Assembly (NCBI GenBank): GCA_021234155.1
Contig: JAJEKV010000075.1
Span: 5,966,908-6,030,907 of the forward strand
Length of the DNA: 64,000 nucleotides
Reading direction: 5' to 3'
DNA from: Isoetes taiwanensis
Taxonomy: Eukaryota; Streptophyta; Lycopodiopsida; Isoetales; Isoetaceae
A program made the position numbers and the translations under genes. The notes below the pieces were generated by a model. The model was not told where the DNA came from. It saw nothing but the letters and a program-made list of their open reading frames with translations, and did no database searches. Positions 8,180-60,714 of this stretch are shown piece by piece (within the stretch, counting starts at the first letter, position 1; each line of letters opens with the position of its first letter).

Positions 8180-8463
8180 TGTTAGAATAGTATAATGTGA
8201 TATACGTTGGACATGTTAAGTGATTGTAACTTAACGTGTAACTTAACATTGTACCCCATGGGACATTTTATATTAGCCCATGGGCCCCCTCATTTTTTAT
8301 CTGTTTCCCTATTTGTCACTCAACATGAGGAAGTGGCAGATATATATGTACCATCTCATGAGTTAGTGTAATACACAAGTTTCTTGCTCCTCCATTGTTG
8401 CTTGCTGCGTCTCCTCCTCTCTCCATTGTGTTTTGTTGTTCAGATCATCTTCTCCACTCAACA
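8180..8463 (+). repeat. 284-bp copia LTR, copy B
   Basis: This is the 3' LTR of remnant B. It starts TGTTAGAATAGTATAATG after AAGGGGGAG and ends CACTCAACA. It has the same length as the LTR at 1177-1460 and is highly similar to it. Confidence 0.88.
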
Positions 8464-20689: not shown

Positions 20690-23600
20690 CATTACAAGAG
20701 AATATACAAGGGGTCAATTAGTGTCACTGATTGTGCCAATATATGGCCTAAAATTGCAACTCAAATGTTTTTAACAATTGATGCTATAGGTGACACATAC
20801 CAGTGACACAAAAATAGCAATAAGAATGTCACATATAATGTCAGCCCCTTTGTCACCTATAGTGTCAGTGCCAATGGCACCTTTAACGTCAAATGTAGTG
20901 TCACCTATATAGTCAATTACAACATCACCTTTAACATCAAGCATAATATCGGTAGAGTCACCTACAGTTGCCATAATGCTAAATTTATTGTCACAAATTA
21001 AATCATATTTACTGTCATTGCTAGTGTCAATTTTAATGTCGCCAATAAAGTCATTCATAATGCCGCCTATTTTCTCAGTACCAATGGCATCTTTTTGCCA
21101 ATATCAATGTCATTTATTGCTCCATTGTTGTCAAAAGTTGGGCACTCTTTATGTCAGTTACTAGGTCGTATAGAATGCAATTTGACGATATTGCCATATA
21201 TAGTGGCACTAATTAGATCATATATACTACAGTCGGATCAATAATAATATCATCAACAATAATATCACATATTCTGTCACTTTTATCAATGAATATTTTC
21301 GCTTATTGTGTCACTTATTTCATTGGATGTTTTCGCTTGATGTCACTTATAAGATCAGCTATAATGCCATCTATAGGGCAAATTATATTTCAACTAATCA
21401 TCTGAAACAACCAAGGAAACACAAATTAAAATAATATGTGATGTTTCCATATAAAATCAAAGCAGCACGGGGATTTGAACCCCATTGGCACCAGAATTCT
21501 TAGCCTTGCCACAATGCAAGGTCCCAGGTCCCAAAGGACCTAGATTATGCAAAGGGGCTATTTCCATATGCAGATGCTGCTCAAAAAAACAAATGCAATA
21601 TATTTCTTGCCTTCAAATGTTATTTTTTTTCCCAGCTATCCATGCACCAAAAGATGCTCATGCATCATTCTTGTTGGTAAGAAAGTGGACTGTAAGAATC
21701 TGTTTGAAATAAAACCAGAATGCTAAAGCACCAATAACCCTTCAATTTTCCAAAAATAAGACAATCGGCAACATTGCCTGGAAGAGCAGATTGACCTCCC
21801 TCATAGACCAGCCCACAGAAATTGACTCGTTAACAACAACTTTGGCTCTGCGAAACCTACAGAAACTTCAGTCCTACAAAACCAAATCAAATATGTCTGT
21901 GAAGGAAGAGGTCGTGTAATCCAGCCTGGCCTGCCGTAACTGAGTAGCCGTTCTGGAAGAAGATGTTAGATTTCCAGTTTCTAGAAACCTACCTAAACAG
22001 TCGTGATGCAACTATTACAGCGGAATGAAGCAGCTGTGGCTATGGTGCATCCTCGAAACCACCAAAGAGCCGCGCGGACCTGCACGCCATCGCCCACCGC
22101 CTCCAAATCTCAACCTAAAAAAAAACAGAAGAAAATATATACCTGACCCTAAAAAAGAAAAGAAATGTATATTGTACTGACCTATTCCCCAATGTCTGCA
22201 CGTGAGCCTTGCTTGCGGTAAGGGCCTGGCTGGACAGCAATTGAACATTTTCTTCACAAAGGCTATATTTTATATGAAATTGATTATTTCAAGGGAGCAG
22301 TGACCATTTCAAGTAAGTATTTGCATTTCAAAAGGGCATTAGCCAATAGCCATTCCTTGAGTAAGGCATGTAATTTGTTGAAATAGGCCAAATATTGGGC
22401 ACGTAAACCTGGGCCTCGGCCTTACGTGCCAAATATCTGCCCTCGGATGTACAGCCTCAGTCACGCATTTTTAGTTATCGGCCTCGGCCAGACCGATAAC
22501 CTTACCTAACCCACGCCGCACTAGTAAGATTATAGCATGCATGCCAAAAGTCACAGGGTCGAACTAGGGAAAGATACAAGTTGCATAAATATAACTTTTC
22601 AAGGGATTTATAAGAAAAGCATAGAGCATCAAAAGGGCATATTCTAGAAAAGTGGCTAGATACAACATTAACATGCCCCCTCGAAGGTAGGCATACATGT
22701 TTTTCTAAGGGTTTTAAAATAAAAGCATAAAGCAATGAAAGGGCATATTCTAGAAAAAGTGGTGTTAAGTGCATAGAAGCATCTAGTAGACATATTTAGC
22801 ATGCTCAAGTGTTTTTTTGTATTGCTTATTCTTATGCATTTTTGTATTGCAACTAATTCTTATGCATTTTGTTGGTTCGTCAATAAAACAAAACCTATCA
22901 TGAATGGCACTTAGTCAGCGTACTTCCATTTATATTTGGATGCGAGGACTTGAAAGCTAAGGGAAAATTTTAAACTTCGCACAAAGAACATTGAACACTT
23001 CATTAAAGAAAGATGGCTTGCTATTGCTTTATTTTTTAAAGATGGGCAAGTGCTTTCAAGTTTTAAGAGGATTTTATTGGAACTTTATCTTGAAGCAGGG
23101 CTAAAACGAGGGTTAAGAGTTCCACTAATGATACGTACAATTTCTCATTTCATTTTACTTGCAAGAACACCTTGAGGTTTACCATTTTCTTGTGCAAAAT
23201 CCTGATCCCTACAGCCTACATTCAGCTTTCACTTTGGTAATCACATAATCATCTATTGATCCAACCTACCAAAGACAAAAAGGATTTTAGTTCCATAAAG
23301 GACTTGTCAAAACTATAGCATCTTCAGTCATATTGTTAATGCTAACACTCATGGTGTCACTATATGAACTAGCATAAAAGATGACCGAATTGATGGGACA
23401 ATATCTTAGATATTGATGTTACTAATACGAACATCTATTGTGGCAATATACTATGGCCAAACAAGTATTGACGAAATAAGTGACACTCAAGGTGCTATTA
23501 TATTTCATGCTAATAACAACACTTATAATGTCACTAGTGGGCACTGACACTAATACTGATGTTATATCTCTAACAACTATTGTCGCTATATTTGATGCTA

Positions 23601-23879
23601 ATAACAACACCTATAACGTCACTAGTGGCATTGACACTAATACTGATGCTATATGTGTAACAACCGGTGATGCTATGGTTGGTGCTAATAGCAATATCTA
23701 TAGCATCATAGCTAATTACTGACATTGTTGGTGACATAAAGAGTGAGGCTATAGGTGACATAAATTGTGGTATCTATAGTGTCATTTCTATATAAATGTC
23801 AACAATATTGTCATAGTGTATACTTTCCAATGTTCTAGTGACGTTTTGATGACACTAATGGACCCCTTCTCTTGTAGTG
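20690..23879. mobile_element. Non-autonomous CACTA element, 3.19 kb, with GTA target duplication
   Basis: The left end CATTACAAGAGAA and the complement of the right end, CACTACAAGAGAA, are CACTA-type termini. Both continue with a GGGGTC-ATTAGTGTCA stretch, offset by eight bases on the left. GTA flanks both sides (20687-20689, 23880-23882), the expected 3-bp duplication. Subterminal arrays of degenerate GTCAC, TGTCA and GTGACA units fill 20715-21370 and 23330-23860. No transposase is seen in the middle (21380-23330). The two ends agree well, so the insertion looks fairly young. Confidence 0.88.
22392..22500. repeat. Two adjacent stem-loops with CCTCGGCC loops
   Basis: Arms 22392-22406 and 22422-22436 pair at 14 of 15 positions (GGCACGTAA core). 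Arms 22474-22481 and 22493-22500 (GTTATCGG and CCGATAAC) pair perfectly. Both loops contain GCCTCGGCC. They lie inside the CACTA element. Confidence 0.65.
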
Positions 23880-23945: not shown

Positions 23946-24749
23946 CTATTTCATCCTGTAGGATCTCTTTTTAGATTGCATTTGGAGTGAACCTCCTCTT
24001 GATTTTGAGATAAGATAAGATAAGATAAGATAATTTTTTCTTGAGAATGTGACATAGAATTGGCTGTGGGCAAAAACTGGTGTTGATAGATACATGCCAA
24101 CGGAGGTCATGGGCTGGCCTTGTGACTTGTTTATCGTCATCGAAAATGTGAGTCGCACAGGAAATTGTCTTCGCTTGAAGGGGAGGAGGTCATTGTCTGT
24201 TGGCTCCAAGGTTATCCTTGGTATGAGGACCCTTGTTCCTTTGTAGGTGCCTCTGATTATCTCCGCATCTATGATTCTTGAGTGCGCTTTAATTACGCGG
24301 GGGTGGGTGCCATTGCAAAGACTGGCCTTCGGGTTCATGTTTCTGAGTAGGATGATAATGGCACCGTACTTGACATGTCGCTTATGCGGTGGCATGCCAT
24401 AAGAGATCAGGTGGTTGATGAACTCGATTGGGAAGTCCCTTGTAGCATCTTCGCCTTCTGCGATGATGGCGTTTATGCTCGTATATGTATATGTATGAAG
24501 TTGTCCATGTAATCTTAGGAGCACCTTATTGTTGATCCTCAACGTATCTTCATTCTTTGATGTCAAGATGGCCTTGTCATACAACAAGTGCACATTTGCC
24601 TCCGTTATTTCCTTGTCAAAGATGATGTCAATCAAGTCGTCTTCCACAACGCATTCTTCGGGTATCTTAACCAAGTCACGGTCGAGCCCTGGCTCATTGT
24701 TCATCCGTTCCCCGTTACCAAGATGTAGCAGCCAATTAGAGAAAACCAT
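23946..24749 (-). pseudogene. Helitron PIF1-like helicase, C-terminal fragment
   Basis: The 267-residue minus-strand frame contains the C-terminal helicase motifs of plant Helitrons: IEFINHLISYGMPPHK, GAIIILLRNMNPKASLCNGT, IPRITLEPTD, FKRRQFPVRLTFSMTINKSQ and a VTFSR-type motif VI. The Walker A and B parts and the Rep domain are missing, so this is a fragment. A (GATAA)n microsatellite at about 24006-24032 has changed the very end. It lies just before the hairpin and CTAG terminus, as expected for a Helitron 3' region. Confidence 0.88.
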
Positions 24750-24760
24750 GATTCTTTTAT

Positions 24761-25037
24761 TTTGAAATTATTCCACTGTTCGTTTTTTTTACCTCGGGTT
24801 TTTTCCCAATGTTTTGAGCAGGAAATTCCGTCCTGTATTTTTTTTTTAATATGAATTGGTGGCAATATTGCACCATTTATTGAGTGTTTTAGAAATTAAT
24901 GACAACAAAACCAAGGCAAAAAGTAGAGTGTAGACTGGAAAGAGCCAAGGCCAAACTAATTTTGCATCAAAAAACATCTTGTATATCCATATAAGTTATG
25001 TACATGTACAAGTATTTTTACAAATCTGAGTACATTT
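24761..25037. other. AT-rich spacer
   Basis: Poly-A/T-rich sequence between the helicase fragment and the HAD block. Nothing else is visible. Confidence 0.5.
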
Positions 25038-25690
25038 TCATTGACAGTAATTTTTTACAACCAGATCATAGTCTGTAGGGTTTGCTTTTCCTTGCGAATC
25101 TGGTCTACTACTCAGGAAAGCAAGCACTGTAGGGGCTGATATGAGGGAGTCAAACATCTGTAGTATTTCTGCTGACATCCAATTCTCTTCATCTACATTA
25201 TTTGGGTGCCATGTCGGAGGATTTATGATGTTGTTTACGTTCAAGCAACACTTGATGGGGTCATCATCCACCAAGCATATCTGATCTTTTGAAAATCCTT
25301 CTATCACCTCCAAGGCCTCATTATATTCTTGATGAAGATATTTTTGCTCCATGTTGTGGTCGACGAACGATTCCACAATTACCTTGATCTAATATAATGT
25401 ACAAATCAAAGTTCTTCAGCTCTGGAACAACTTCTTTAATTTCTAATATATTGTTTCTCAACATGGATAACCATATACCAATGCTGGCTCTGTCCTTCAA
25501 ATGGCTCAACAATTTGTGAACACCAGGTCTTGGATACACTCATTTGGTCTTTGTCTCTAGAACCCCTCCAGGAAAAGGAGGTGCAACACGGTACTCTGCC
25601 TTGGAGAAGGACTTGATAAGAACTCCATTCAGGTCGAAGAGGATAAGTTTGTTGTTATTTGAAGTAGTCTCATCTCTGCACAATGCATAT
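25038..25690 (-). pseudogene. HAD phosphatase block, FCP/SCP (NLI-interacting factor) type
   Basis: After a splice-acceptor-like TTGTGCAG at about 25678 the minus strand reads KLILFDLNGVLI, matching HAD motif I in FCP/SCP form with the second Asp replaced by Asn. Then come YPRPGVHKLL and ASIGIWLSM (motif II region), and QICLVDDDPIKC (motif III), ending at a stop near 25038. The block is nearly continuous but is not in a single frame, so it is probably decayed. Members of this family dephosphorylate proteins such as the RNA polymerase II tail. It lies on the same strand as, and downstream of, the acidic linker and methyltransferase-like block, and may be the C-terminus of the same gene. Confidence 0.6.
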
Positions 25691-25728
25691 TTTAAGTTAA
25701 CAAAGAATTTTGAAATTCAAGAATAATA

Positions 25729-25798
25729 CACTCGCGCTATGCGCGAGACATGCTAAATAAATGGTCCATATAAAAAAGAACTCACACTGCGCGCGAGA
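25729..25798. repeat. Pair of GC palindromes in AT-rich DNA
   Basis: CTCGCGCTATGCGCGAG at 25729 and TGCGCGCGAGA near 25787 stand out in AT-rich, probably intronic sequence. Similar palindromes occur at 36394-36551 and 39053-39069. Confidence 0.7.
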
Positions 25799-25999
25799 TG
25801 ACTTACTCTTTTGTGGGTGAAGTCGCCTTTTCTCCCATCCTGGATGTCCTATCTTCTTCTTCAACTCTGACAGGACTAGAGTTAGTTTGTTCAAGAAGAA
25901 CAAAAGTATTTTGTACCTGATTCCTGTCGATTTACCTCAAGAATTCTCTCCTCTTCTGATAAGGCCTGCGCAAACTTCTACTGAGTTTGTGGATTCATG

Positions 26000-26938
26000 A
26001 TTGGCGGCGACTTTGGTTATGGATTTCCTGATTCAATTTCACTTTCTTCAGAAGCGGACTCTTCATCGGAGATAGTTTCTTCTGAAGTGTCATCCCCTGC
26101 ATCCTCCTCCTCAGACACTGGCTCTACCGCCTTCTTCTTTCTCTCCTTCTCTGCATCCTTTTGACCTTGCCGATTCTTCCTTTGTGCTTGCCTCTTGATA
26201 TGTCAGATGATGCTTCTCCGCATCAGGATATTACAGCTCCATAAACTCTTTCTGCTACTCGGCCACCCAGCTTTGAACTTTTCTGCCATTGGCTAGAGCT
26301 TCACGCCCAACCCTACCATTGACAAAGTAGTCACAGATTAAACCTCCCTTGGGTACAAATGTATCCACGAGGTAGAAAGCCAAGTTCGAGCTTAGTCTAT
26401 ACTTGTTCACTGAACCTCCCTTCAGGCCAACCTAATTCCTTCTCACATTCCTCAGCGGTCAGGTTGGATCCTTCTCTATAAATCTGAGTATCGACTCAGG
26501 AAGCTTTTGGGAACCACTCTTGTGTGCCTCATAAACCACGTCTGCTACTTTATTTATGATCATGTAAGTGATCATTGTTATGCCATGAGTGACATAATAG
26601 TTCTTAGCAGGCGTCCCATCTACCAGCACCCCGTGGGGTACATTTATATTGGCCTTTATTTGAGTGGTGGCATGCAAGATCTTTGGATATTCCTCTATAG
26701 GTTCAGACAGGAACACAAGTGTGATGTACTCTTCGGTGGCCTGCTTGAGACAATTTGAGATCATGGAGATGTAGTAATCCTGAGGGTATGTTCGAGAGTC
26801 CACCACAAACAATTAAGTTGTCTTTGGAATAGTCTGGGTGGCAACAACCAGAGAACCCTGACATGACTTCACCATGTAGGTTTCTGATATAGTCTCGGGA
26901 ATGTCCAAGTCCCCACTGACTCTGCACCTCAGCTCCAC
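26000..26938 (-). pseudogene. Possible DNA-methyltransferase-like block plus acidic linker
   Basis: On the minus strand, from right to left: VKSCQGSLVVATQTIP, then a 117-residue open frame (LFVVDSRTYPQDYYISM, ILHATTQIKANINVP, GITMITYMIINKVADVV), then FVPKGGLICDYFVNGRVGRE and ALANGRK, which resembles the motif I region of N4/N6 DNA methylases but lacks the usual FxGxG pattern. A charged stretch (EERKKKAVEPVSEEEDAGDD) follows. The assignment is tentative. The block is cut on the right by the CACTA end at 26940 and is interrupted. It follows the ParB-like block at 34.85-36.35 kb on the same strand, so one disrupted gene is likely. Confidence 0.4.
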
Positions 26939-26959
26939 ACACTACAAGAGAACAATGAT

Positions 26960-27620
26960 TTATTGTCACTTTTTTTGTCACTAAAATATCATGTCAAAAA
27001 ACTGATGTAAAAGTGACAATAAAAATGACAAAAATAGTGAAATCTAAATGACACTAAATGTGACAATAGAGTGATGCAACAGTGACAAAAGGATGGTGTA
27101 AATGTGACTATAATGTGACAATAGAATGATATGGTTTTGACAAAACCATGTGTCAAAAATTTGACAATAAATTGACTTAATACTGACAAGAGTAATGACA
27201 AACAAATGCTATAAGTCTGACTATAATGTGGCAACAGATGACACAACTACGACAATAGATTGACAAAGTTTTGACAAAACCATGTGCCAAAAATGTGTCA
27301 ATAGACTGACTTTAGAATGACAAAAGAAGTGACAAAGAAATGCTATAAATTTGACCATAGTGTGACAATAAAATGTCATAACTTTGACAAAGATGTTGGA
27401 GAAAAAGTGGCACAAATGTGTCACTAGTGTGCCAATAGAATGCCTCAAATGTGACAAGAGGGAGAGAATAAGGTGACAAAAAAGTGAACAAATTGACAAT
27501 AAGTTGGCATCAAAGTGTCAATACGACGACAATAAAATAACAATAAATAGATTTTGAGGTGACAATAGGATGACAAATAAGTGCCAATAAACTAACTTTA
27601 AAGTGACAAGTTCATAAGAA
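26960..27620. repeat. CACTA subterminal repeat array
   Basis: About forty degenerate units of TGACAAA, GTGACAAT and AATGTGAC, spaced roughly 10-20 bases apart, begin directly after the CACTA terminus. This is the usual transposase-binding region of such elements. Confidence 0.8.
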
Positions 27621-27736
27621 ATTATTCGAGAAGTCAAGATATCATCAATCATCTTCTTGATCATCATTGCCAGGCTCTAATATATAGTACTATCAATCAG
27701 ATGTCTGCGCCTGGGTACAATATGGACTGCAATCCA

Positions 27737-28099
27737 CTATGTTGGGTTAACAGGGTTTTCAAAAAAGAAAACCTGTTCAACTTGTTTAGGGTAAACGAAA
27801 GGTTCATTCATCTCTCCAAGAACCTGTGTTGAATCAATTTGGTAGAAACCTGAAGGATGTGATCTCATGGTCTGATTTCTGCATCTATAAACAACTTTGA
27901 ACCATTTTGCCCTCAAGATGGTTACATGAAATGAACGGAAGTCGACATCAATAATATCAATAATTTGCCCATAATTTGAAGATATGGCCAATTTCTTTAG
28001 CTTTGTGGTGGATTTATGCTGGATTCTAGTTTTTATGCTAGATTGGTAGATACTACAATGCCCGAAATGGATTTGGAAGAAGTGAAAAGGGGGCAACAA
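27737..28099 (-). pseudogene. CACTA transposase-associated fragment (DUF4216-like)
   Basis: The 120-residue minus-strand frame has FRSFHVTILRAKWFKVV, SGFYQIDSTQVLGEMNEPFV and KQVEQVFFFENP. This matches the pattern of DUF4216 in plant En/Spm transposase proteins (KC.W, a 'D..K' turn, then QVKQVFYVEDP). It is a fragment, located where the 3' end of the transposase gene is expected inside a CACTA element. Confidence 0.7.
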
Positions 28100-28448
28100 A
28101 ATTGTCCAGTGTGATTTCCAACTAATGGGTCTCGATCCAATGCCTCAAGCATGTCGCCTTCTACTATGGAATATGCACGGGGTATTTTTGATCATTTTGA
28201 ATACGCGCTAATGATAGGGCAATGCCTGTTGGAATGGTTCTTACCAGCAGTCTGCCCCTGTTATTGGCAAAATATCAAGGCCTCTAATTTAGTGTTAATA
28301 TTCTTTCCTTTTCAATTGTATTCATTTTAAATTGTACGTTGATGGCTTTTGCAACCTTTAGATAAGTATGATCCATGAATTCAAAGAATATATTGTCCCC
28401 TTTCTTGCTTAATTCTAAACATTACTTCAATCTACGTTTTATATATAG
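28100..28448. other. Stretch without recognised gene
   Basis: AT-rich sequence upstream of the uL14 exon. It may be its original intron. I see nothing else. Confidence 0.4.
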
Positions 28449-28572
28449 GGATATGGGTATAGCTATTGTGAAAGAGGGTAAGCCTGATCTTTGTAAGAAA
28501 GTTATGCCTACTATTATTGTTTGTCAATGCAAACCCTGGAGGAGAAAAGATGCATTTTTGTATATTTTGAAG
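28449..28572 (+). pseudogene. RPL23: Isolated exon of ribosomal protein uL14 (RPL23)
   Basis: The exon reads [20 protein letters not shown] and then [20 protein letters not shown]. It matches the well-conserved uL14 segment GDMVMATVKKGKPDLRKKV and QRKPWRRKDGVFMYFE. A TATATAG acceptor precedes it and GAAG|GTAAGC follows, so genomic DNA with introns was copied, not mRNA. Several invariant residues are changed (for example RQRK to CQCK) and no neighbouring exon is visible. It sits inside the CACTA region, so it is probably a captured and decaying fragment. Confidence 0.85.
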
Positions 28573-29440
28573 GTAAGCTAGATTCGATCTAGCAAATTTG
28601 CAGAATACTTGTTGCAAGTTTTGCAACGGCAGAGAATAGAGTTTCTGAAAACCTAAAGTTTGATTTACAAGTCCTTTTCTTTTTAAACAACATGATGTTG
28701 GATTTGCAGATGTTTTGGTTGACATTTCTGATCAATTTCTTTCATTCCATGTGGCCTTGATCAGAAGACTTGCACCATGTTAGTTTCTTCTAGAAACCAT
28801 TTTCTCTAGGAACTGGATATTTCTGCAGGGGACTGGATATTTGAAATAGGTAGTAGAGAACTCTCTCTTTAGACTGTGGCGCCTGAAGTGTGCCTGAAAA
28901 AAACCTAATTTAGGTGTTTGGTTTCGATTCCAAATTAACCTGCAAGCATCTGAGGGAGGGAGGCACTGCAAAAAAGGCTTTCTGGTTTTGGAACACTCAC
29001 ATAGGTACATATATTAGAGCTGATACCAACTCACAAAAGCAATAGAAAGAATACGAATGTAAGTCCTTAAGCTTCCATGGCTAGAGCCAGCATCACATTA
29101 ACTCTGTGAAAATATCCTTCTATGGTAATGATGATAGACCTGATAAGGCATAACTCAAAGCTGCTTCACATGATGTAGGTAAGAGAGCTATCTTCCTTTT
29201 TCTATATTGTTGTTCATAGCGAAATAGAAGTATCCCTGTAACTACAAAATATGGTGCAGGGCTAGGAAACTATCATTTATTAAATGTGCTTCTAGTGGCT
29301 TTTAATGTGTTTCACAACTTCAAAAAAATTCCTTTTTATGGAAATCCCTTCATTTTGAATTACTGGGTTGTTTCATCTAATTTTTTTGCTTTGATATTGA
29401 GCATGGAATTTGATCATCATTACTTGCAGAGAATACGAAG
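28573..29440. other. Stretch without recognised gene
   Basis: AT-rich sequence between the uL14 exon and the repeats before the EAPP-like exons. No further uL14 exon was found by eye. Confidence 0.4.
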
Positions 29441-29610
29441 ATGAAGAATGCATCAGAGATGAAGAATGCATCAGAGAATACAAAGATGAAGAGTTTTCGG
29501 CCTTCTTCAGCAGAGTTTCCAGCCTGATGCGGCCCCAATGCAGAACTTTGGCCCTGATGCGGCCCCTGATGCAGAACTCTGGCCCCTGATGCGGCCCCTG
29601 ATGCAACTAC
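29441..29610. repeat. Local tandem repeats
   Basis: An 18-bp unit (ATGAAGAATGCATCAGAG) occurs twice from 29441. From about 29523 to 29605 a CCTGATGCGGCCC / CTGATGCAGAACTCTGG unit is repeated about four times. Confidence 0.75.
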
Positions 29611-29916
29611 GTCGGCCTTTCCATGATGCCGCCCCTGATGAGGAACAGAGGAATGGAAAGAATATCTGTTGGTGGCGCCGCCACAGCTCCGCCAGAAAAG
29701 AGCCCCAAAATTACCTGAAAATAAAAAAGGCTGTAATCTAAAGGAATCGATGGGTGCTGAAGGTTAAAGAATGGGGGCCTTAATTTTAAGTTTTAGCAAT
29801 TTGCTGACATGGATAATTAGCTAATGTAGTAATTTTTGTTTTTCAAATTGCCTCCATTAGTGGAATCGAGCCCTTAAAATGGTTAAAGAATGCGATAATT
29901 TTAGGGTTTGAAGATT

Positions 29917-31656
29917 ATGGAGTCCGGCGATGGAGCGAAGGCCTCTGTAGCGGCTTCACCATGCTCCTCGTCTTTGTCTGGTAATATGACTGTTTGCAGT
30001 AATCGTGTGTAGGAGCCATATGGTGCTCTTATTGATACAAATCCTAAATTGCAGACCCTTGTATTTTAAGCTTTTTTGCATTTTTAGTGTTTCCGTTTTA
30101 CCTTCGATGCCACGCAGAAGAAGATGAAGTGCAAAATAGGCAAGTAGACCAAGGACATCAGATGATTTGGTAACAAAAGGCATCCGCATGCATTTTCAAA
30201 AGCAAGCTCTATGTATTTGGGGTAAGAACAGAATACCAAGGATTTAGTTCGAACTATGGCATGAGGTTTTCAGTGTTTATTATAGGGAGCAAAGCTTTTA
30301 TTCTGGATGAACTGAGAAGCATGCTCTTCCTAGGCAAGATGACAACACAACCAGCTTATTTTCTCTTGGGCCAGCTTATGAGAAGGATGGAGATTTCAAA
30401 TAAGCTTATGAGTTATGATGACCAGGGAAGCATAAGAGATACTAAGGTAATCTATTTAAGCTTATTTCTCCTTCAATTTTATTTGTTCCATTCTTCAGTG
30501 GTGGTCATCGGTAGATTTCTTTCATCCACTATGCAGCCAAATCCAAACTTTGATGTACCGCTAGCGTTCTCTAGCTGAATGCCTTCCTACTGTCCTTTCT
30601 GGCACTTATAGAAGGTTGTATCTGTCACAAAAGGACGCACTGGGGAAACATTCTATTATATATATCTCCTTCAAGGGGCATGCAATGGAAATATTAGTAA
30701 TAAAAAACAGGATGTTTTTCTATATTGTGATGACTGTTCTGGCTCCCGCAATATACCATGTAATCAATTTAATACCTTTATGTCATCCACTTTAGGACTG
30801 GAATAGGAACCATATGATGTCTCCTCAACATTTGCTAGCAAGAGCAGGTGAAGATCTTGTGCACATTTGGGCTTATAAGTACATTAATCCTCCTCCAGTT
30901 TTATTTGTAGATGCTGATGAGAAGCTGAAGTTGGACGAACCAGAGTATTATGATGCCTCAATTGATGACAAAGACCAGCATTGGGCTGATTTCCAACGCC
31001 AAGGTCGTAAATCCGATGTTGTTTTGAGCTACCCGACATGCTTTACTACGCGTTGTCTTAATTGCCAATGGTAATGTATAAACATCTAATTTACAGTAGA
31101 AAAAAGATTCTGTTTTTTCAAAGTCATCTAACGTTTCATGATCGATATTAAACCTGCTTTGTGTTTGGGAATCATAGGCTGGTTTATCAGATGCTAAAAT
31201 TAGCAAAGGGCATTTAGAGCAAAGGGCACGTAGAATTGGTTTTGTTTAAACCTAAATAGAGAAATTATATACTCCTATGGTGAATATTCGTTAAAAAGCT
31301 GTAGGAAGACAGAGCAATACACCTTGTAATTATGTCATATGTATTAGGAAGCCATGCTTATGATGAAATTAGATTTCACAGACGTTGATGATGCAAAATG
31401 CAGGCATGAGGTATATGTTACGCAGTACAGAGCTATGTTTGTAAGAAACTGCAGGATAAGGGAAAATGTTAAGGTTCGATTTTCATTGCAGACCAATAGG
31501 AAACGAAAATCGCGAAGTGCTCAACATGCTGAACATGTGTATAATGATGATGAAGCATATAATCCAGTGTCCTGTTCCGTTTGCGATATTGAAGTAGCTG
31601 TTATAAACAAAGATGAAGTATATCATTTTCTTAACATCATACCTAGTTATTCTTGA
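29917..31656 (+). CDS. EAPP: EAPP-like (E2F-associated phosphoprotein) gene, partly resolved
   Basis: Two exons are well supported: 30796-31070 (after TTTAG, ending AATG|GTAATG) and 31404-31656 (after AATGCAG, ending in TGA). They join in phase to give PEYYDASIDDKDQHWADFQR, SYPTCFTTRCLNCQ, HEVYVTQYRAMFVRNC and CSVCDIEVAVINKDEVYHFL, the conserved C-terminal half of EAPP. A possible first exon is 29917-29980 (ATGGAGTCC to TCTG|GTAATA); middle exons are unresolved. The first conserved CxxC is YxxC here (SYPTCF rather than SCPACF), and the usual CQRHE is CQWHE, so zinc binding is doubtful and the copy may be decaying. It lies in the CACTA region and could be a captured copy. Confidence 0.7.
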
Positions 31657-31939
31657 GTCCATTGTATATATAGTCTGCTGAAATAGAAAGGGCAATGTTG
31701 TCTTGTACATTGTTGAAAGACTCGGTCTATTTTACCTTGTGATGGCCAATCTTCAATGGTATATGATCAAAACATGGATACATGTTCTGAAATCTTTTTG
31801 CTGCAAGTTTTTGAACAGGTGGGACTTTTATAAAAACATAATCTATTTCTTTTATGATGGGATCTGTTGTTGGGGTTGACCATTAAATAAGGCTACTTAG
31901 ATCATCCTGAGGAATCTTGTTGCAGGAATATATTGACTA

Positions 31940-32300
31940 ATTTAGAATATGACTAAACATATGTCAAAACATTGCCAAAAAAAAGTGACAAACATGGCCT
32001 AAAATATGTTAAAATAAGTGTCAAAAAGGTAATGTGACAAAATAGGTGCCAAAGACTTGCCAGAAAAGTGACAAAAACTCATCTGAAATTGACACAGTAG
32101 GTGCCAAAGAATTGCCAAAAAAGTGACAAAAATAGATATAAAATATGACACTCTAGATGACACTAAATTGTCAAAAAAACAACCTAAGATATGACAATAT
32201 AGATGTCAAAGAATTGCCCAAAGAAGTGACAAAAAAAATGCTATAAAGATGACAAATAGGGTGTCAAAAATTTGCCTAAGATATGACAAATAGGGTGTCC
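31940..32300. repeat. Second GTGACAAA / GTGCCAAAG array
   Basis: Degenerate units GTGACAAA, GTGCCAAAG and ATTGCCAAA fill this stretch and resemble the CACTA subterminal array at 26960-27620. No CACTA terminus is found at either side. Confidence 0.65.
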
Positions 32301-32339
32301 ATCCTCTGAATTCGGGGTCATCATTTCTATATTGATGAA

Positions 32340-34800
32340 TAAAAAGCATGTTACTTTTGAAGACGTGTATGTGAATCCTTAGAAGACCATGTATTTAGAG
32401 CGGGTTTACAATAAGAGAACAAAGCAAGAAGTCCTTTTCTTGAAGAGTTTATTGCACCCCATGTTGACGTCAAAGACAATTGAACAATGGTTGCGCGCCT
32501 ATACAAGGAAAAGAAACCCACCCTCGGGGTCTTTCGAACAAAGAAAAAAGATGTTTTTGAAGGTCTTTTGGTCGTGGTTATGATGGATCCTTTGGTCGTG
32601 GTTATGGCCAAGGAAAAGTTATGGTCGAGGTTACGATGGAGGATATGACCATGGGTGGGGGTTATGGTGAGGTTTCACGATGTAGTAGTGTGTATGGTCG
32701 GGGTTGATGATTATAATGGTCGCCATGATTATAACACTTTTTGTCGTAGTGGATATGGACGTGGGTCGTGGGTCACGTGGATATCAATCTAGATATCAAT
32801 CTATTGTGTGTGAATATTGTGGTCGTGATGGTCATGGCATTGCAAGATGCTTTGATAGAAAAGAGGATGAGAAACGAGATATGGAAGCTAATTGTGTTAA
32901 TACATCACGTGATAGTGAACAGTATGGTGTGGAAAGAACAATTGGACATCTGTGCAAGCTAGTACAAATGTTTTAGGAGTACCGACAACATGATGATAGA
33001 TTCAGGTGTGCATCCTGCTCCCAAATAATAATGATGGTATTGTGTGTTAAGCAATGGTGTTGAGCTTTGTTATGGTGTTGGGCATGTGTGTATCAAACAT
33101 GTTCCTTATTCATGTGTTATTGTGTGTTGCACTATGGTGTCAACTTCTACATATAGTGTTGGAATTTATTTCTTATATATATTGTTGAGCATTGATATTG
33201 TGTGTGGTATTGAAATATTAAGTTCCTACCTTATAGTATTATCTTGAGTTTATATGGTGTTGTCTAGCTATTATGTTTACAGCTTTGTGCAATTTTCATC
33301 TAGGTGCAACGCAACATATGGTATATGAGAAATCCTTGCTCAGAAATTACCATCCCTTGCGCGTTTTAAAATATGTTTATATGGGAGATGACAGTCGTCA
33401 ACAAATTCTTGGTATTGGTGATCTACCATTACGAGCTCATTCAGGAATTCATTCTTTGCGTGGTGTTTTACATGTTCCTGCTTTACATCGTCATTTACTT
33501 TCTGTTTCTCGATTAACTGATGTTGGTATTCATCTTTACTTTGATGAGTTATTTTGCTACCTTTTGAAAGATGGCTTAATACTTGGTACTGACATGCGCC
33601 ATCACAATTTATATGAGTACCGAATTACAGATGGTCTAATCTATGCTCTTACTGCACGACATCCTGATGGAGATTTATGGCATGGACGCTTTTGTCATGC
33701 CTCTTTTTCAGTCTTGTTGGACATGAAGCGACATGGTGTCGTTAATGGCTTCTCGATGGATTCTCGGGCACTCTTGGCACCATGTGAGGCTTGTGTACTT
33801 GGTATTTGTGGACCATTGCCACGGTCACTTGGTGGTGCCATATATTTTCTCTTAATCATTGATGATTACTCACGTTATTCTTTCATCTTTTCTCTCAAGA
33901 AGAAATCTGATGTTTTCTCAACGTTCTGTAAGTGGAAGGCAATGGTGGAATTGCAGATGGATGTGCCCTTAAAAAGCATTCGCAGTGACAATGGTGGTGA
34001 ATTTAAGAATCATGTATTTGACTCTTTTTGTACTAATGCTGGCATTCTGAGAGAATTTACAGTACCACATACACCACAGCATAATGGATTGAATGCTATT
34101 CGGAGTATGTTGCTTCATTCTGGTTTAAATACACAATTTTGGGCTGGAGCAGCGAGTACAGCCGTTTATGTTCAAAATTATATATCTTCTTCATCTGTCG
34201 CTGGTTTCACACCTTTTGAGATATGGTCTTGCAAGAAGCCCACAGTAGCACATTTTAAAGTATTTGGCTGTCAAGCCTATGCCTATATTCCTAAGGAGAA
34301 ACGGAGTAAATTACAACCAGTTGCTCAAAAGGTTATCTTTTTAGGATATGCTGATACTGCACCAGCTTATCGACTGTTTGATTTGGTTTCTAAGAAAATT
34401 GTTCTCTGCCGCTATAGAGATACTATTGTTAATGAAACTATTATGGCCCAGTCTCCTTCGCCATCTGTTACTCACGATATTCTATCAAATTTCCGAGAAC
34501 ACTATGATGACGATATTTTTGATGATCGTGCCATTGAAGAAGTCTCATTGTTGCCTGATATTTCGGATTTACCTGATAGTGTTGGAGGCGAATATGAGGA
34601 TATATCTGCTCAATTACATGACAATATTATTTCGATGGATGATAATGTTCCTCAGCCACATGCAAAACCATCTATACAACCTCTTGAAGTTATGTCTCAG
34701 CAAGAGTTTCACACTTCTCGTGTTACTCGACGGCGTCCTCCGGTTACTTTGCGGTAGATGGGCTGGTTTTTCCTTGTTCCTGGATTTATATTCCTGAATA
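32340..34800 (+). mobile_element. Ty1/copia remnant E: gag, protease, integrase
   Basis: A short gag piece (about 32389-32583), a glycine-rich stretch, and a CCHC knuckle (CEYCGRDGHGIARC, about 32809-32850) are followed by a long frame at 33273-34757. That frame has the protease end (HLGATQHMV), GAG-pre-integrase (DLWHGRFCHASF), and an integrase core with LLIIDDYSRYSFIF and IRSDNGGEF. Reverse transcriptase, RNase H and LTRs are absent, so it is broken, although the long frame is fairly well kept. It is a different family from copies A to D. It sits inside the disrupted ParB-like/methyltransferase-like gene. Confidence 0.88.
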
Positions 34801-34849
34801 AATCTAGGCGATCACTTTGAGTACTTGAGCAGGTCTTCATCAGTTATTT

Positions 34850-36345
34850 TCATCATGTCCAAGATACACTGCTCAAATAGGTTTTCTATTCTAGACATCT
34901 CAAAGAGTTCCTTTGAGATGGCCTCCCTCATGACACGGAGGTCTTTCATGGACTTGCAGAAAGGGCCTCTAGAAAGGATGGTACATCTTTGATTTTTGAC
35001 ACATTCTTCATAAAGACCTGTCCATCTATAACAGACTGGAGCACCTTCAGAATTTCTTCTTCCCTTAACCCATGTGCACTCCTCAAGTCCGTGACTGTAA
35101 AATCTTCAAGGGATCCTTTCTCAAGTTTCCCTGCTTTTCCTACAAGCACTTCTGCTGTCCACTTGTTCTACACCTCATTCCATTTGTCCCACACATGATC
35201 AGGACTGAACACTATGTGGTAGGAATCAGAGGGACCTTCCTTGGACTTATTCTTCTTGGTGCCAGTTTTCTCTTCCTCCTCTGCAACATCCTTCTTTTGT
35301 ATGATGACCTTGCTGATCATCTTTATTATTTCCTCGTAGGAGTTGTCTTTCTTCTCCCCTTCTTTTTTCTTTTTGAAATTGGACGGCCAAGCTCAACCCA
35401 TTGATGCCTCAACTGAGTGTTGTCCGTCAATGACAATGTAGCACAACGTATCGCTCTTCCTTAGGTCATCCCATGTCTTCTGTGTATGGCTTGTCATTGA
35501 CTGAGTCCCATGGTAAAACATCAGCTGGATTTGGTACTGTGGTGGAAAATTCAATCATGGACTTCTGTATCCTCAGGGCATGTTTGGGATCAAAGAACCT
35601 AGATATGAAAGATGCTCGAGAAGATCTTATCAGCTTGTCAATGGCTATGCTTTTTGTTACGTCCAAACCAAGTGGATACCATTGCTTGAACTTCAGAAGC
35701 CTGTCTACAGCATTAACCCTCGATTTCTTTTCAATATCTGTTTCCTTCACTGGCTTTGGCAAAGGTACTAGGGCCAAAGTTTCTGACTCAAGTGCACTGC
35801 CACTACTACCGAAACCAGATATGTAGAAGCTTGAAGATAGTTTCTTCTGCAAACCTCGTCGGACTATAGATATTCCTGCACATACAGAACGAATTGTATG
35901 GTGTGGGCCTTGAATGGACCATCCATACTTTGTAACACCATCTGCTGTCTTATCTGGCCTGAATCTGTCTATACCTGCATTGTATTTGGAAATGCTGAGA
36001 TTCTTCTTTACAATCTTCTCTATTATGAAGACACAGATCTGGTCATCAAGCTCCTCGCATGAAAGGGCCAACTCTACTTTTTTGAAGGTCACGTCTTTAT
36101 TTTCCCTTAAATGCAGGACCACGTCATACTTTGAGTCTACCCTGCTCACAGTAACATACCATTCAGACCCCATAGGTAAAACTGTATGTTATGACTCTGC
36201 CATCATCAATTAGCTTGATGCCAAGAGTCCGATCTATCTCTGTTTCTTCTTGTACTACCTTGGGTCTATCCTAGGTTTCTTTGAGGGTGCAATAGTTGAT
36301 ATAACTAGTGCTCTCTTGGAAGCTATAAAACAAATATCCAAGTTA
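34850..36345 (-). pseudogene. ParB/DGQH-like domain block of an unfamiliar gene
   Basis: On the minus strand, after a TTTTATAG acceptor near 36340, a short conserved-looking lead (KRALVISTIAPSKKPRIDPR) precedes a 235-residue open frame (36173-35466) containing FDPKHALRIQKSMIEFS and NPADVLPWDSV. It is followed by LRKSDTLCYIVIDGQHSVEA near 35404-35455. The last motif matches the ParB/Srx-like fold and DGQHR proteins. A lysine-rich stretch and a helical-looking part (EGPSDSYHIVFSPDHVWDKW; LEDFTVTDLRSAHGLREEEI) follow to 34850. The blocks are in different frames, so the gene is damaged here. The function is unknown; in bacteria ParB-like domains are often joined to DNA methylases, which fits the block at 26-26.9 kb. 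Confidence 0.5.
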
Positions 36346-36393
36346 GCCATTGCTGAAGTATTTCTATGTTAAGTAAGCAACTTGCACAAATAT

Positions 36394-36551
36394 CTCGCGC
36401 GTGGCGCGACAAGTCTATAAAGATTTATTATGAGAGCAATTTTTTTGGCTTCGCGCGTAGCGCGAGTCCGAGGATCCAGGACATTAAGAGAGATGGAATG
36501 TGCTCGCGTAAGGTTGATCTCGAATATGACCTCGACTAGCGCTACGCGCGA
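36394..36551. repeat. Cluster of CGCGCGTAGCGCG palindromes
   Basis: TCGCGCGTGGCGCGA at about 36397, TTCGCGCGTAGCGCGAG at about 36453 and AGCGCTACGCGCGAA at about 36538 occur within 160 bases of AT-rich DNA. They resemble the short GC hairpins found at Helitron 3' ends, but I do not see a CTRR terminus behind them. Confidence 0.7.
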
Positions 36552-36699: not shown

Positions 36700-39034
36700 T
36701 GCAATCTTGTACCTCTTCTTGATAGTGGCAGAAGTGATGACCAAATTGGTAATGCACATGCACGATAAAGGAGATATCCAGTGCCTGCAGCTACCAGGAG
36801 GGGAAGGTACCTTTTCTATTATGCAATATGCTGATGACACTTTTGTTTTTTTGAAGAAAGATGAGAAGAGTCTTCCAAATTTCCTCATTGCAATGGCACG
36901 ATTTGGCAAAATATCAGGGGTTCGTCTAAATAAGAGCAAGTGTGCTATTATTTTGAACTCTCAGGTAAAGATGTTGGAACAATAATTTTAGGCATCCCAC
37001 TAGCCTTAAATTCCTCATTCAAGGGACTGTGGGATCCAATTGTGACTCGGATCAAAAGAAAACTTGGTTTGCATTCCTCCTCCCTCTCCTTGGCTGGCAG
37101 AGTTCAGATAGCAAATGCAGTCATAGGCAATTGTATTTTTCCTCTGCAATTATAGGTGACAAAGCCCCGTATGCCAAGATTGAAGTAGCCATCAGAAAAT
37201 TCATTTGGCAAGGAGTACATAAAGTGGCCTGGGATGACCTGACTAAATCCAGGAAAGAAGGCGGGCTGGGATGCAAGGATTTGTTTGTTCAAGCACAAGC
37301 TTTGGCAGCTAAGATGATTTGGAGAACCATTCAGAATAATTCCCCATCTCCATCTCAAAAATTGGTTAGATATTGGGTGCAAGAATCATACCCTGTATGC
37401 AGTCATAGCTTGAAACATCAATTATCAGATTCTGTATACTTCCAGTTTACCCCTTGCCCCAATACTTCCAGTATCTTGAAAAGAATGTTTGAGGCCTGGA
37501 ATTTAGCTTCCTTATGCTATAAACCTCCAATTCTTGATGCTAAATCTAAAGAAGTAAATTTCGTTTGGCATCCAGGTGTGGTAAACAGTGAAAATGATTG
37601 TTTGGCTTTAATGCATCCTCAAAAATATATGTAGTGGCATCAGGCAGGGATTAGACAGATTGGTGACCTTAGAGATGGAGTGACTGGATGGAAATCTTGG
37701 GATGAAGTTGCCAAACTTACCAAAGGATCACTGCTGGACAGGAAGATATATAATGTAGTAATGGACAGAATCAAACAATTTGATGAGTTGACTAGTAGTT
37801 ATAATCAATGGCACTTGAAGGGCAAGGAGATTAATTCAGTGGGGGGAATTTACAAGGCATTAATTAATCATAAACCTTCCAGGGCAACCCTTTTATGGAA
37901 CTGTAGAGAGAAAACCTTGGCAGCAGTTTGTACAAAAGGATGGAAAAGCTATACTGCAAACAAGATAAAGACCTTCAGTTGGCTCATCCTCCATCAAAGC
38001 TTAATGACTAACTCGAGAAGATCCAAATTTGATCCTTCCATCTCACAGACATGCCCTATGGGATGTGGAGAGGTAGAATCCTCGAATCATATTTTTCAGT
38101 GTCCGGTTGTTAGAGAATTCTGGAGTTGGACTGCTCAGATTAACAATGGAACCATTGGTGAAGCTGACCTGATAGAATTCTTGAATACAGAAAACAGAAT
38201 ATTGTGCACAATCAGATCACTATGTTGCTGGGCTGTGTGGAAACATAAGAACAGAGTAGCAATTGAAAATACCCAACCTTATATGGCTCAAACAAACTTT
38301 CTTAGCTGAGCTGGTAGACTCGACTGTGGCTCATAGATCTATGAAGGGGAAGAATTATGATAACGGATGGACAACCTTTGGTAGATTTCAGGGAATTTAT
38401 GAATTTTTTGTTCTTAATCTAACAGCCAATGATGATATTTTGCACAGATGCCATGAGGAGACTCAATAGGTATGGTGTTGCGGATAGGGGAATGGGAGTA
38501 GCAGATGATTCGGACAGCGAAGAATCGAATCTCCTAGGATCGAGGAAGAAGACATTTTTATTCAGCTGAAGCAGTAAATGATTCATGCATCTGCAATAAA
38601 GAAGATTCTTAACAGACCTGAAGCTTAGAGCCACAACAACCTCCGACCTTACTTCATGAATTTATACCACAAGTGGCAGCAGAAGAGGGAGGCTCATGTC
38701 CTTCTACTTCTGGACTTCACCAACTACCCTGTGGCTAAGCTGGATCTATTGCTGAACATGTTTGGCAGGAATAGAGTAATGGACTAACCATGCAGGACCT
38801 GATTGATGCACAATAGAGCAAGCTAAACAGTTTTTGAACATTCCATAAGTCTGGTTACATGGTTTTTTGTGTTGAAAGATGCATTGTGTAGCAGGCTCTG
38901 ATTTTGAACACATTTCCTGTTATGAGGAATGTGTATATGATATCAAACTGAATAGTATGCTTCATATGGTATACTTTATGACTATGTAAATTATTTTTAT
39001 GAATACAAAACCCACCTTGCCTTAAAAAAAAAAG
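36700..39034 (+). mobile_element. 5'-truncated L1-type LINE with zf-RVT domain and poly-A
   Basis: The element starts in the reverse transcriptase (YLFLIVAEVM; IMQYADDTFVFLKKDEKSL at 36820-36880) and continues through GRVQIANAVIGNCIFP, KFIWQGVHKVAWDDL and GGLGCKDLF. It ends with the plant zf-RVT pattern (KIKTFSWLILHQSLMT; CPMGCGEVESSNHIFQCP, 38046-38105). About 600 bases of 3' untranslated sequence end in a run of A at about 39025-39034. Frame changes near 36970-37150 and a stop at 37632-37634 show that it is inactive. No clear target duplication is visible. Confidence 0.88.
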
Positions 39035-39550
39035 GGCAGGGGGGGGGAGGGGGTTCGCGCGTACCGCGAATCGAAGGACAACCCGACATTTATGCTACTA
39101 AGATTGATGGAATCTAGGGCACTCCACAAAAGGCTTAAGATAGAAAATATTAAAGAGAGTATGCTTCCTAAAAAAGAAAATCATAACACAGGGAATCCGT
39201 AACCCACTTCCCTGTCTCTGATGAATACAATTGAAGATTAAGATACTAAGAATTATAATCACAGAGCATTGCAGATTCACGTAGATGTGCAGTTTAATAC
39301 TGCGAGGCCCGATGTGATAGTGAAGGCCATGATGAAAAATATGAGGGAGTCCCAAATGCAGGTTAGACATGGCTCTATCATACGTTGCATTGGTCATACA
39401 AGTGGATTGGAAAGAACGGGTTGATATTTCCTTATTGGAATGGGGGTTCTTGTGCATCTCTTTTTGTACATCATGGAGATAATGAGTTTTGTGAGCCATA
39501 CATTTAAAAAATTAGGGTATAAGCCTAATGTGTAGGTCGATGTCTTTAAG
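39035..39550. other. G-rich tract, GC palindrome, no gene
   Basis: A G-run (about 39035-39051) and the palindrome TTCGCGCGTACCGCGAA (about 39053-39069) follow the LINE tail. The rest to 39550 shows no gene I recognise. Confidence 0.45.
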
Positions 39551-40270
39551 CTTGAGCAACGGAGGAAGCAAGAGTTATATGTTGCTTGAAGAGTGGGTGA
39601 TCTAACTATGTCGTTTTTAAGCGGCTTGCTTAAGCTTCATAAAGAGCACCATTTACACATGGACTTGAACCCGGGCAATGTCTTGCTTCATTTTGACTTT
39701 GGAAAAGAGAAAGGATGCACTGACCCCCAGGTTATCTATATTGGTATCTGTGATTGGGGAGAAGAAAGGCTAATAGGTGAGCCAGTGGAAGTGAAGCGGT
39801 GGGCATACAAAGGCATGGATGGTGCTGGCAAAAAAGCCATTGAGAATGAAAGACTTGCCTATTCGTACATGAATGATGATTTGTATTGGGGTCCCAAAAT
39901 AGATGGAACTCAGATGGTAGCTACAAGGGGACAACCTACTTTATCTATTACCTTGCTGATTTTGCATGCAAGCATTATTTCTTGGAGGCTATGGGTACTA
40001 CTGAACAAAGCCAGAGGTTTTGAAACATGTGCAATTATTTGAAGCACTGTGTCGAATCCCCAATACGAGACAAAGCACATAAGTTTGATCTGAACCAGCT
40101 ACTAAACACCATGCAGAGCACTTGGAATTGCTCTCCAACACATTGCACAAGATCCCAAATGGAATCAGATTGGATTCCTCAAGTTGGGTTAGGTGCAGAC
40201 GATGTTGACCAAGCTGGACTAGGTCACGCTTCGCATGCCATTTATGAGCTCTCTTGTATGCTATCCTAAA
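39550..40270 (+). pseudogene. Atypical protein-kinase-like block
   Basis: The plus strand reads LLKLHKEHHLHMDLNPGNVL, a match to the HRDLKPxNV catalytic loop with His-Met-Asp-Leu-Asn, then YIGICDWGEE, where DWG stands in place of DFG. An open frame of 149 codons spans 39593-40042, and a related frame continues to 40269. The N-lobe is not visible, so only the catalytic loop half is present. It may be part of one gene with the blocks at 40494-41147 and 41306-41860, on the same strand. I do not recognise the family. Confidence 0.5.
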
Positions 40271-40493
40271 AGTAAAAAAAAATTATTGATTGAACAATTG
40301 CTTTAGACACATTTAATAAAACATCATTGGCATTTTATGTATTTGTTTTCATTGCACTTGATTTTTTTTATAATTTATAAGTAATTGAACAAATAACTTA
40401 CTTACAAATCATGCCAAACAAAAAGTATGTCTTAACAACCGAGTACGTCTCATCAGCAAGAGACTATTTCTCATCAGCAAAGAGAAGGGGCTG
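40271..40493. other. AT-rich spacer or intron
   Basis: AT-rich sequence between the kinase-like block and the next coding-like block. It could be an intron. Confidence 0.35.
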
Positions 40494-41147
40494 ATGAAAC
40501 TGGGCAGGGGGGGCAACTTCTCCTTCTCGTCCTCTTTGATAACTCCAGACGGCTTTGTATTCCCTTCTCTACCTACATTATCGGAGGTTAGGGCACAACA
40601 GTTACAAAGAGCAGAGGAACATGCTAGAACAAACGAAGCGCGTGCAAAAGAGTTGGTGAGGCTGAGGGCAATGCGGAAGTGGCCAGGAAAGAAGGTGTCA
40701 CAATTACAGAGGTTCATGGAGTTGCATGTGACATGGGCCCAGGTTGTTGCCCACAAGGGGCGGATTACGAGGATGTGGAGGCTAATTTATACGCCAAACA
40801 GTTTGACGCCGACTGGCCAAGCAGGAGAGCAGGCAAGTATAAAGCATGCGACTGCAAGATCCCTGAAGTCCGAGCTAAAGCTTTGGAGAGATGGGTCCAA
40901 ATGAAAGGAACGATGATAAACAAATCATGAATTCAGCAAGACGTTTGCCAAGCAAGTGTATTATGAGATTGTAAAGGGGGAGCCTGTAAATTATGCTAGC
41001 AGAAAATGGAAGCAAGAAAGCGGTAGTGGCAGCAGCAAGAGAGTGAAGCAGATAAATGATTCTAAAAGCGCCTTGGGTGATGAACCCGTAACTATAACTT
41101 TTAGAAGTGGGAGGGAGGGGGGTGCAAGGGGGGATAGTTGCAAGTAG
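40494..41147 (+). pseudogene. Unrecognised coding-like block
   Basis: The sequence shows coding-like composition spread over overlapping plus-strand frames. It includes a charged helical stretch (RAEEHARTNEARAKELVRLR), a Cys-bearing part (HGVACDMGPGCCPQGADYED) and a basic tail (KQESGSGSSKRVKQINDSKS). I do not recognise a family. It is interrupted, and sits between the kinase-like and RING-like blocks on the same strand. Confidence 0.35.
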
Positions 41148-41305
41148 GGGTGCGGTGGATCAAGAGGCGATCTCAAGGCTCAGTCAGAAAATGAAAGAAG
41201 TTGAAATCTGACTCTGTCAGAGGAGAACTTGGCTTAAAAGACCGTGTGAATGCTCATGACAAGATGGCTGCGGAATTAGCAAACACGAAGAATTAGCTTG
41301 CAGCT

Positions 41306-41860
41306 TTGGGTAGGGAAAATACGATGTTGAGGGTAGATAATGAGAATATGTGCAGTTTGACCAGAGCCTTAGTTTCTGATCCCCTTAGAGTCTCAAAGGA
41401 GCAAGGTACTGCATACCTCCCTCCCGAATACTTATATGAGAGTCAGTGCGAGGAGATAAAGAATGGGGACCACAGATATAGTGCAAGTTGCGGGGACAAT
41501 TTGACTCAAGTTAGTTGGTATGCCTTGGGATGTGGACGTCGTTTGCATTTGAGGTGTTTGTTGGATTGGATGATGGGCAGTAGGTTCTGTCCAGCGGAGG
41601 ATGGATATATTATATCGGAGCATCAGTATGCCGTGCTTAACATGCAATTGCGCGTGCTCCCCTTGCCACTTCTGGTTGCTCACAGGAGGGACGAAAACAT
41701 GCATATGTTCAGAAGCCAACATGAGATGGACCTTTGGAGGGGGGTGGAAGAACCGCGTGAAGGTGAGGATGTACCAGATATTAACCAGTACCTGCCTCCC
41801 GCTCCTGGGCCACAGGGTGATTGGGTGAACCCTGGTCCAGACATGGTGGTGGAGGATTAG
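41306..41860 (+). CDS. RING-like zinc-finger protein block, function unknown
   Basis: The 184-codon open frame has a Cys/His pattern SQCEEI...SASCGDN...SWYALGCGRRLHLRCLLDWM then SRFCPAED, which resembles a divergent RING-H2 finger in which the last CxxC has lost one Cys. A Pro-rich acidic tail (NQYLPPAPGPQGDWVNPGPD) ends the frame. RING proteins usually act as ubiquitin ligases, but that is only an inference here. Upstream sequence on the same strand is interrupted, so this may be the 3' part of a damaged gene. Confidence 0.4.
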   Translation: MGRENTMLRVDNENMCSLTRALVSDPLRVSKEQGTAYLPPEYLYESQCEEIKNGDHRYSASCGDNLTQVSWYALGCGRRLHLRCLLDWMMGSRFCPAEDGYIISEHQYAVLNMQLRVLPLPLLVAHRRDENMHMFRSQHEMDLWRGVEEPREGEDVPDINQYLPPAPGPQGDWVNPGPDMVVED

Positions 41861-41879
41861 GATGATTACCTTGTCCCGT

Positions 41880-60567: not shown

Positions 60568-60714
60568 TTTTTTTCCGGTTTACAGGCGCGACCTTGATGA
60601 TATCAGGAGATTTAGGGCGGCACAGGTTCTGTGTTAGTTGTTGTTTTTACTGGATTTATGTAATCTGGCAGGGCAAGGTCTTAACTTGCCGGATGCAAAC
60701 TGCTAGTAGAACAA

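Follow-up and report, generated by a model that had tools for sequence, protein, structure and literature searches.

The 64,000-nt stretch of Isoetes taiwanensis DNA analyzed here (NCBI GenBank assembly GCA_021234155.1, contig JAJEKV010000075.1, positions 5,966,908 to 6,030,907 of the forward strand; hereafter the window, with positions counted from its first letter) carries on its minus strand the remains of a large gene that ends in an FCP/NIF-type phosphatase-like domain and that has, ahead of this domain, one region with a motif like those of DNA methyltransferases (MTases) and another with a motif like those of ParB proteins. The locus holds one broken gene at most and no intact gene. We tentatively interpret it, with somewhat less than even confidence, as a land-plant copy, now dead, of a transposon accessory gene, and probably as a decayed plant variant, of about 1120 aa and with an added FCP-type domain, of a kind of protein described from algae, i.e., a transposon accessory protein of about 1100 aa that combines ParB-like and MTase domains (PMC12477816, in its passage on this protein). 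As that passage comes without the FCP/NIF end and the plant host, the gene is filed as a probable variant rather than as a proven member.

Profile evidence indicates that the phosphatase-like domain is real, and it is the sole block of the gene that is statistically established. Its joined pieces matched the Pfam NIF profile with 43 bits against a gathering score of 21.8 (E 4.8e-11), in agreement with the FCP/SCP-type HAD block that a preliminary description of this DNA had reported; joining the pieces with a different middle gave E 6.4e-11, each piece alone also exceeded the gathering score (23.1 and 22.6 bits; E 6.5e-05 and 9.3e-05), and the match spans most of the domain. A dullard-like NCBIfam model matched the block weakly (E 0.0002, far under the model's cut-off), and a search of PDB sequences matched no member of the family, returning two unrelated proteins (E 0.14-0.16). 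The block reads ILFDLNGVL from about 25644, followed by LVDDDP and the stop codon. FCP/SCP phosphatases have the catalytic signature DxDx(T/V), from which the present copy departs with DLNGV, having Asn at the position of the second Asp; VDDDP is present. The domain is probably inactive.

Upstream of this domain, the charged linker ends at the sole GTAAGT of the C half, and with the CAG at 25676 as acceptor, a run of 86 codons without a stop spans the splice junction and the start of NIF is retained. Within 60-300 nt downstream there is one more potential acceptor, which likewise leaves the frame open (94 codons) and skips the NIF start, so that openness of the frame does not single out the first acceptor. 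Because the MTase-like block, the linker, and the NIF block are contiguous and are joined by a frame-keeping intron, we consider them one gene segment.

Without the copia and CACTA stretch and the one intron, the gene would comprise about 1120 codons between 36350 and 25038. Stops and frame changes interrupt the minus-strand reading repeatedly, and the gene is thus a pseudogene. Its openness exceeds chance in some respects; when the N half was simulated 2000 times with a first-order Markov model, no simulation reached its open stretch of 240 codons (36188-35469), and the share of the sense strand in stop-free stretches of at least 50 codons was 0.86 in the N half (0.40 simulated) and 0.91 in the C half (0.43 simulated), values that 0 of 500 simulations attained in either case. 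Ratios of observed to expected CpG were low in the two halves (0.28 and 0.43); as a host exon (0.28) and the window (0.52) are equally low, CpG content is not diagnostic.

All strings quoted in the preliminary description, from DGQH to the stop codon, were located on the minus strand in the order given there. In the N half, a hydrophobic strand followed by a DGQH/GHxR-type motif is present as CYIVIDGQHSVEA, once in the window and in none of 200 simulated windows. DGQH alone occurred 46 times in the 200 simulated windows, or about once per four windows, and DGQH with its hydrophobic context and a downstream Ala occurred in none, the pattern being post hoc. In the C half, the string GGLICDYFVNGRVGRE starts at 26347 on the minus strand, and a candidate MTase motif I (GG..hD.F.G...) reads GGLICDYFVNGRVGREALANGR; this pattern, too, was found once in the window and in 0 of 200 simulated windows. 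Both the DGQH-context and the motif-I patterns were composed from hits already seen. Two ParB-like segments aligned in the right order to a phage ParB profile, with a score that was not significant.

A number of results weigh against the interpretation as a ParB-MTase transposon gene. Neither ParB nor MTase profiles of Pfam, NCBIfam, PHROGs, and PADLOC matched, so that the blockwise profile search suggested in the preliminary description succeeded for NIF and left the ParB and DNA methylase assignments unmatched; the N half gave chance-level profile matches (Pfam E 1.5, PHROGs E 0.19, NCBIfam E 0.19), and the MTase-like block approached DUF3859 under its cut-off (E 0.039 and 0.14). The catalytic motif of beta-class DNA MTases is DPPY/SPPY, and the MTase-like block has none, at best a degraded VVDSRTYP. 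Three custom profiles were built from at least 120 viral stretches fetched by a DPF.GSGTT pattern (128 open reading frames [ORFs], of which 121 had at least 130 residues ahead of this motif) and were searched without filters. With the ParB profile (10 sequences), the score of the query was reached by 167 of 2000 shuffles and surpassed by at least 6 of 243 further open stretches in the window; with the whole-MTase profile (121 sequences), 185 of 2000 shuffles scored as high for the entire block and 42 of 2000 for its C-part, and in these two tests at least 6 of the 243 other window stretches again outscored the query; with the short motif-I profile, 15 of 2000 shuffles scored as high, yet 3 of 243 window stretches scored higher. 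Two AlphaFold models made without an alignment were uninformative (mean predicted local distance difference test scores of 41.5 and 35.6), and of the 51 Foldseek matches to the first model (E up to 10), none had E ≤0.001. With regard to the coding signal, the antisense strand is open as well (0.87 in the N half, 0.71 in the C half), and the longest single open stretch of the C half is ordinary, being reached in 509 of 2000 simulations. Finally, PMC12477816 says nothing of an FCP domain in its passage on the published protein.

Because library profiles, custom profiles, and AlphaFold models do not confirm them, the ParB and MTase identities of the preliminary description stay leads at the level of motifs. 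This bears on an explanation that we regard as unlikely but serious, namely that the locus is a decayed host gene of a plant FCP1-domain (NIF) family. In such a gene, the N part would be specific to plants and of unknown fold, and the ParB- and MTase-like motifs would be chance resemblances. That NIF alone has statistical support and that ParB and MTase profiles fail agree with such a gene, and plant FCP-like proteins may carry DLNG-type signatures; by contrast, chance would have had to place both prokaryote-type motifs in ParB-MTase order, with context patterns that, post hoc, were seen in 0 of 200 simulated windows.

The genomic setting likewise speaks against a transposon gene in some respects. 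No transposase was recognized among the ORFs read or among the selected ORFs scanned with profiles. In the interval 20000-43000, 15 inverted-repeat pairs were found. The gene lies between the arms of three of them (18-21 nt, 81-86% complementary), but each of these three has one arm inside a second CACTA-type element at 20690-23879 and is thus taken as chance; convincing terminal repeats around the gene were absent among these pairs. A mobile-element origin, as put forward in the preliminary description, is plausible by analogy with the published algal transposons, even though neither a transposase nor convincing terminal repeats came to light, and for these same reasons a host FCP-domain gene stays a serious rival. 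The CACTA-type element that interrupts the gene was also considered as its carrier and was rejected, because its 26940 terminus is oriented away from the C half and because the second CACTA-type element stops short of the gene. That second element has CATTACAAGAG/CTCTTGTAGTG ends with a matching GTA on both sides (by eye).

The two halves of the gene are 7.8 kb apart, and both copia and CACTA sequences were found in this gap, which bears out the disruption by such insertions that had been described before. The copia ORF at 33237-34757 matched the Pfam profiles SH3_retrovirus (1.1e-22), Pol_BBD (1.4e-15), rve (3e-11), and gag_pre-integrs (5.7e-09); the gag part with the limit at 32310, as well as the outer limits of both elements, was set by eye. 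The CACTA-type element has TGTCA-rich subterminal repeats on both sides, and its far terminus was not found; exons of EAPP (E2F-associated phosphoprotein) are captured in it (30796-31656, plus strand; E 9.4e-31). Once both insertions are discounted, the N and C halves abut on the same strand. The preliminary proposal of a single gene fares differently for its two parts; contiguity and the intron tie the MTase-like block, linker, and FCP block together, whereas no target-site duplication proves the junction with the N half. Given a copia fragment that by eye lacks its ends, a far CACTA terminus that was not found, and the lack of a linking target-site duplication, rearrangement has occurred. 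These same observations would fit two unrelated genes, one comprising the N half with DGQH and the other the MTase-like and NIF blocks, joined by transposon insertions and deletions. We consider this quite unlikely, as the halves lie on the same strand, abut without the transposons, and have a combined length near that of the published algal protein.

Searches for relatives bear on a further explanation, in which the locus is an endogenous giant virus remnant or a bacterial transfer and never was a transposon gene. Fusions of ParB and MTase recur in prokaryotes and phages, and 10 of the 121 motif-selected viral ORFs carried an upstream ParB-like motif. However, no relative was found in viral contigs with the MTase-like block and the 240-aa N stretch (a search in which only close relatives are detectable), in prokaryote genomes with one 51-aa query, or in phages with the N half to DGQH and the MTase-like block, and the gene has an intron of spliceosomal type; we thus regard a viral or bacterial origin as very unlikely. 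Among PDB sequences, the MTase-like block matched two designed helical-repeat proteins (E about 1e-4; taken singly, none of the stretches passed) and two glycosidases (E 1.3). Seven plasmid records matched a 63-aa piece with motif I (E 2 to 9), of which five are from Shewanella, one from E. coli, and one from Rhizobium. Four of the five Shewanella matches are annotated as DNA adenine methylase and one as hypothetical; kinship with these enzymes was discounted, because the aligned part is the enzyme N-terminus in one of the Shewanella records and E-values of this size are expected by chance. The same 63-aa piece matched 16 phage records with unrelated annotations, and the ParB-like piece matched three phage records and one plasmid record, unrelated where annotated.

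A GC-rich palindrome, TCGCGCNNNGCGCGA, is clustered beside the gene (Table 1). With at most one mismatch, five copies are present in the window against 0.01 expected, and 0 of 100 shuffles reached five; with at most three mismatches, 11 copies are present against 3.43 expected, of which four with three mismatches and one with two lie elsewhere in the window. The copies at 36447 and 39051 extend into a 28-nt repeat that is 82% alike. The palindromes border the present gene and a divergent pseudogene with kinase-like and RING-like parts, with a LINE in between; as speculation, they are candidate binding sites of the ParB-like domain. The neighboring pseudogene (39245-41865, plus strand) includes the kinase-like part HMDLNPGNVLLHFDF (Pkinase E 0.00042) and the RING-like part (zf-RING_2 E 0.0021), both under curated cut-offs. 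The fragment of a long interspersed nuclear element (LINE) between the two divergent pseudogenes (36700-39030, plus strand) matches RVT_1 just under the cut-off (E 1.6e-06) and ends in an A-run, its limits being set by eye.

Table 1. Positions of the pseudogene, its parts, the insertions, and the palindromes in the window
Feature	Position	Strand	Remarks
Pseudogene as a whole	36350 to 25038	-	Putative ATG at 36350; stop 25040-25038
N-terminal half	34758..36350	-	Putative ATG to copia junction; includes 240-codon open stretch 35469-36188
DGQH motif of ParB-like block	35417..35428	-	IVIDGQHSVEA; LCYIVIDGQHSVEA; read from the letters
Lys-rich part	about 35390-35200	-
Copia fragment, gag to integrase	32310..34757	+	Inside gene; both ends truncated (by eye)
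CACTA-type element	26940..32300	.	CACTACAAGAG terminus at 26940; limit 32300 approximate
MTase-like block	26186..26936	-	Motif-I-like GGLICDYFVNG...ANGR from 26347
Lys- and acid-rich charged linker	25807..26202	-	Read from the letters
Intron, 131 nt	25676..25806	-	GTAAGT...TGTGCAG; connects linker and NIF block with frame kept open
NIF/FCP-type HAD block and stop codon	25038..25675	-	PF03031; frame broken within block
Palindrome TCGCGCNNNGCGCGA, exact	25732..25746	+	Inside intron
Palindrome copy, 2 mismatches	25782-25796		Inside intron
Palindrome, exact	36395..36409	+	Upstream of putative start
Palindrome, exact	36451..36465	+	Upstream of putative start
Palindrome, 1 mismatch	36537..36551	+	Upstream of putative start
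Palindrome, 1 mismatch	39055..39069	+	Past LINE, ahead of kinase-like pseudogene

The window is otherwise full of transposons, with plant-type host genes represented by a DUF630 match at 60685-61860 (E 1.1e-20; the start of DUF632 is below its cut-off) and by an exon with PHD and chromodomain at 11133-11699. Just downstream of the pseudogene lies a fragment that we read as a helitron-type helicase (23946-24767, minus strand; Pif1 2B domain, E 1e-11). Direct repeats of 0.88 kb at 581-1460 and 7594-8463 are 93.5% similar and are, by eye, copia polymerase ends. Rfam gave no match at gathering scores, and no tRNA was found.

If the locus is indeed a dead transposon accessory gene, its ancestral protein, about 1100 aa long, may have worked through three domains; the ParB-like domain would have bound DNA, perhaps the neighboring palindromes, the DNA MTase-like domain, of the beta class (N4C/N6A), would have marked the element's own DNA, and the C-terminal FCP/NIF-type HAD domain could have acted on, or merely docked to, phosphorylated nuclear proteins, e.g., the RNA polymerase II tail. 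No such protein is made from the present copy today. A more far-reaching version, in which a land-plant giant transposon carried a self-recognizing epigenetic module, i.e., a fusion of ParB-like, DNA MTase, and FCP-type domains that bound TCGCGCNNNGCGCGA palindromes in the intron and 5' region of its own gene in a parS-like manner and marked and regulated its own DNA, seems to us highly unlikely. If intact paralogues exist, the class of transposon proteins recently described from algae, which may bind and modify their own element, would extend to plants. It would gain a phosphatase-type domain with a possible effect on transcription, and the palindromes would be candidate binding sites. Among the matches listed for open-licence literature, no land-plant ParB-MTase-FCP protein turned up and the Ectocarpus paper did; ParB goes unmentioned in the available passages of PMC12695648, PMC8885841, and PMC9477723.

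Three groups of known proteins are suited for comparison. The gene resembles FCP/SCP (NIF, PF03031) phosphatases in its above-gathering profile match and in the presence of VDDDP, and differs from them by D-x-N in place of D-x-D, by its broken frame, and by the attachment of the domain to a longer protein. The order of its ParB-like and motif-I-like segments is that of phage and prophage ParB-fused DNA methylases, which we take to be of the PF02195 plus PF01555 type; in contrast to these, it is longer, has no significant profile match, and contains an intron, Lys-rich and acidic linkers, and a NIF domain. Compared with the algal ParB-MTase protein, as far as the passage in PMC12477816 describes it, the Isoetes copy is dead, has a plant host and an added C-terminal FCP/NIF domain, and lies in surroundings that yielded neither a transposase nor convincing terminal repeats; what the two would share, here by motif, is the combination of ParB-like and MTase-like regions in one protein of about 1100 aa, encoded by a eukaryotic gene in a setting rich in transposable elements.

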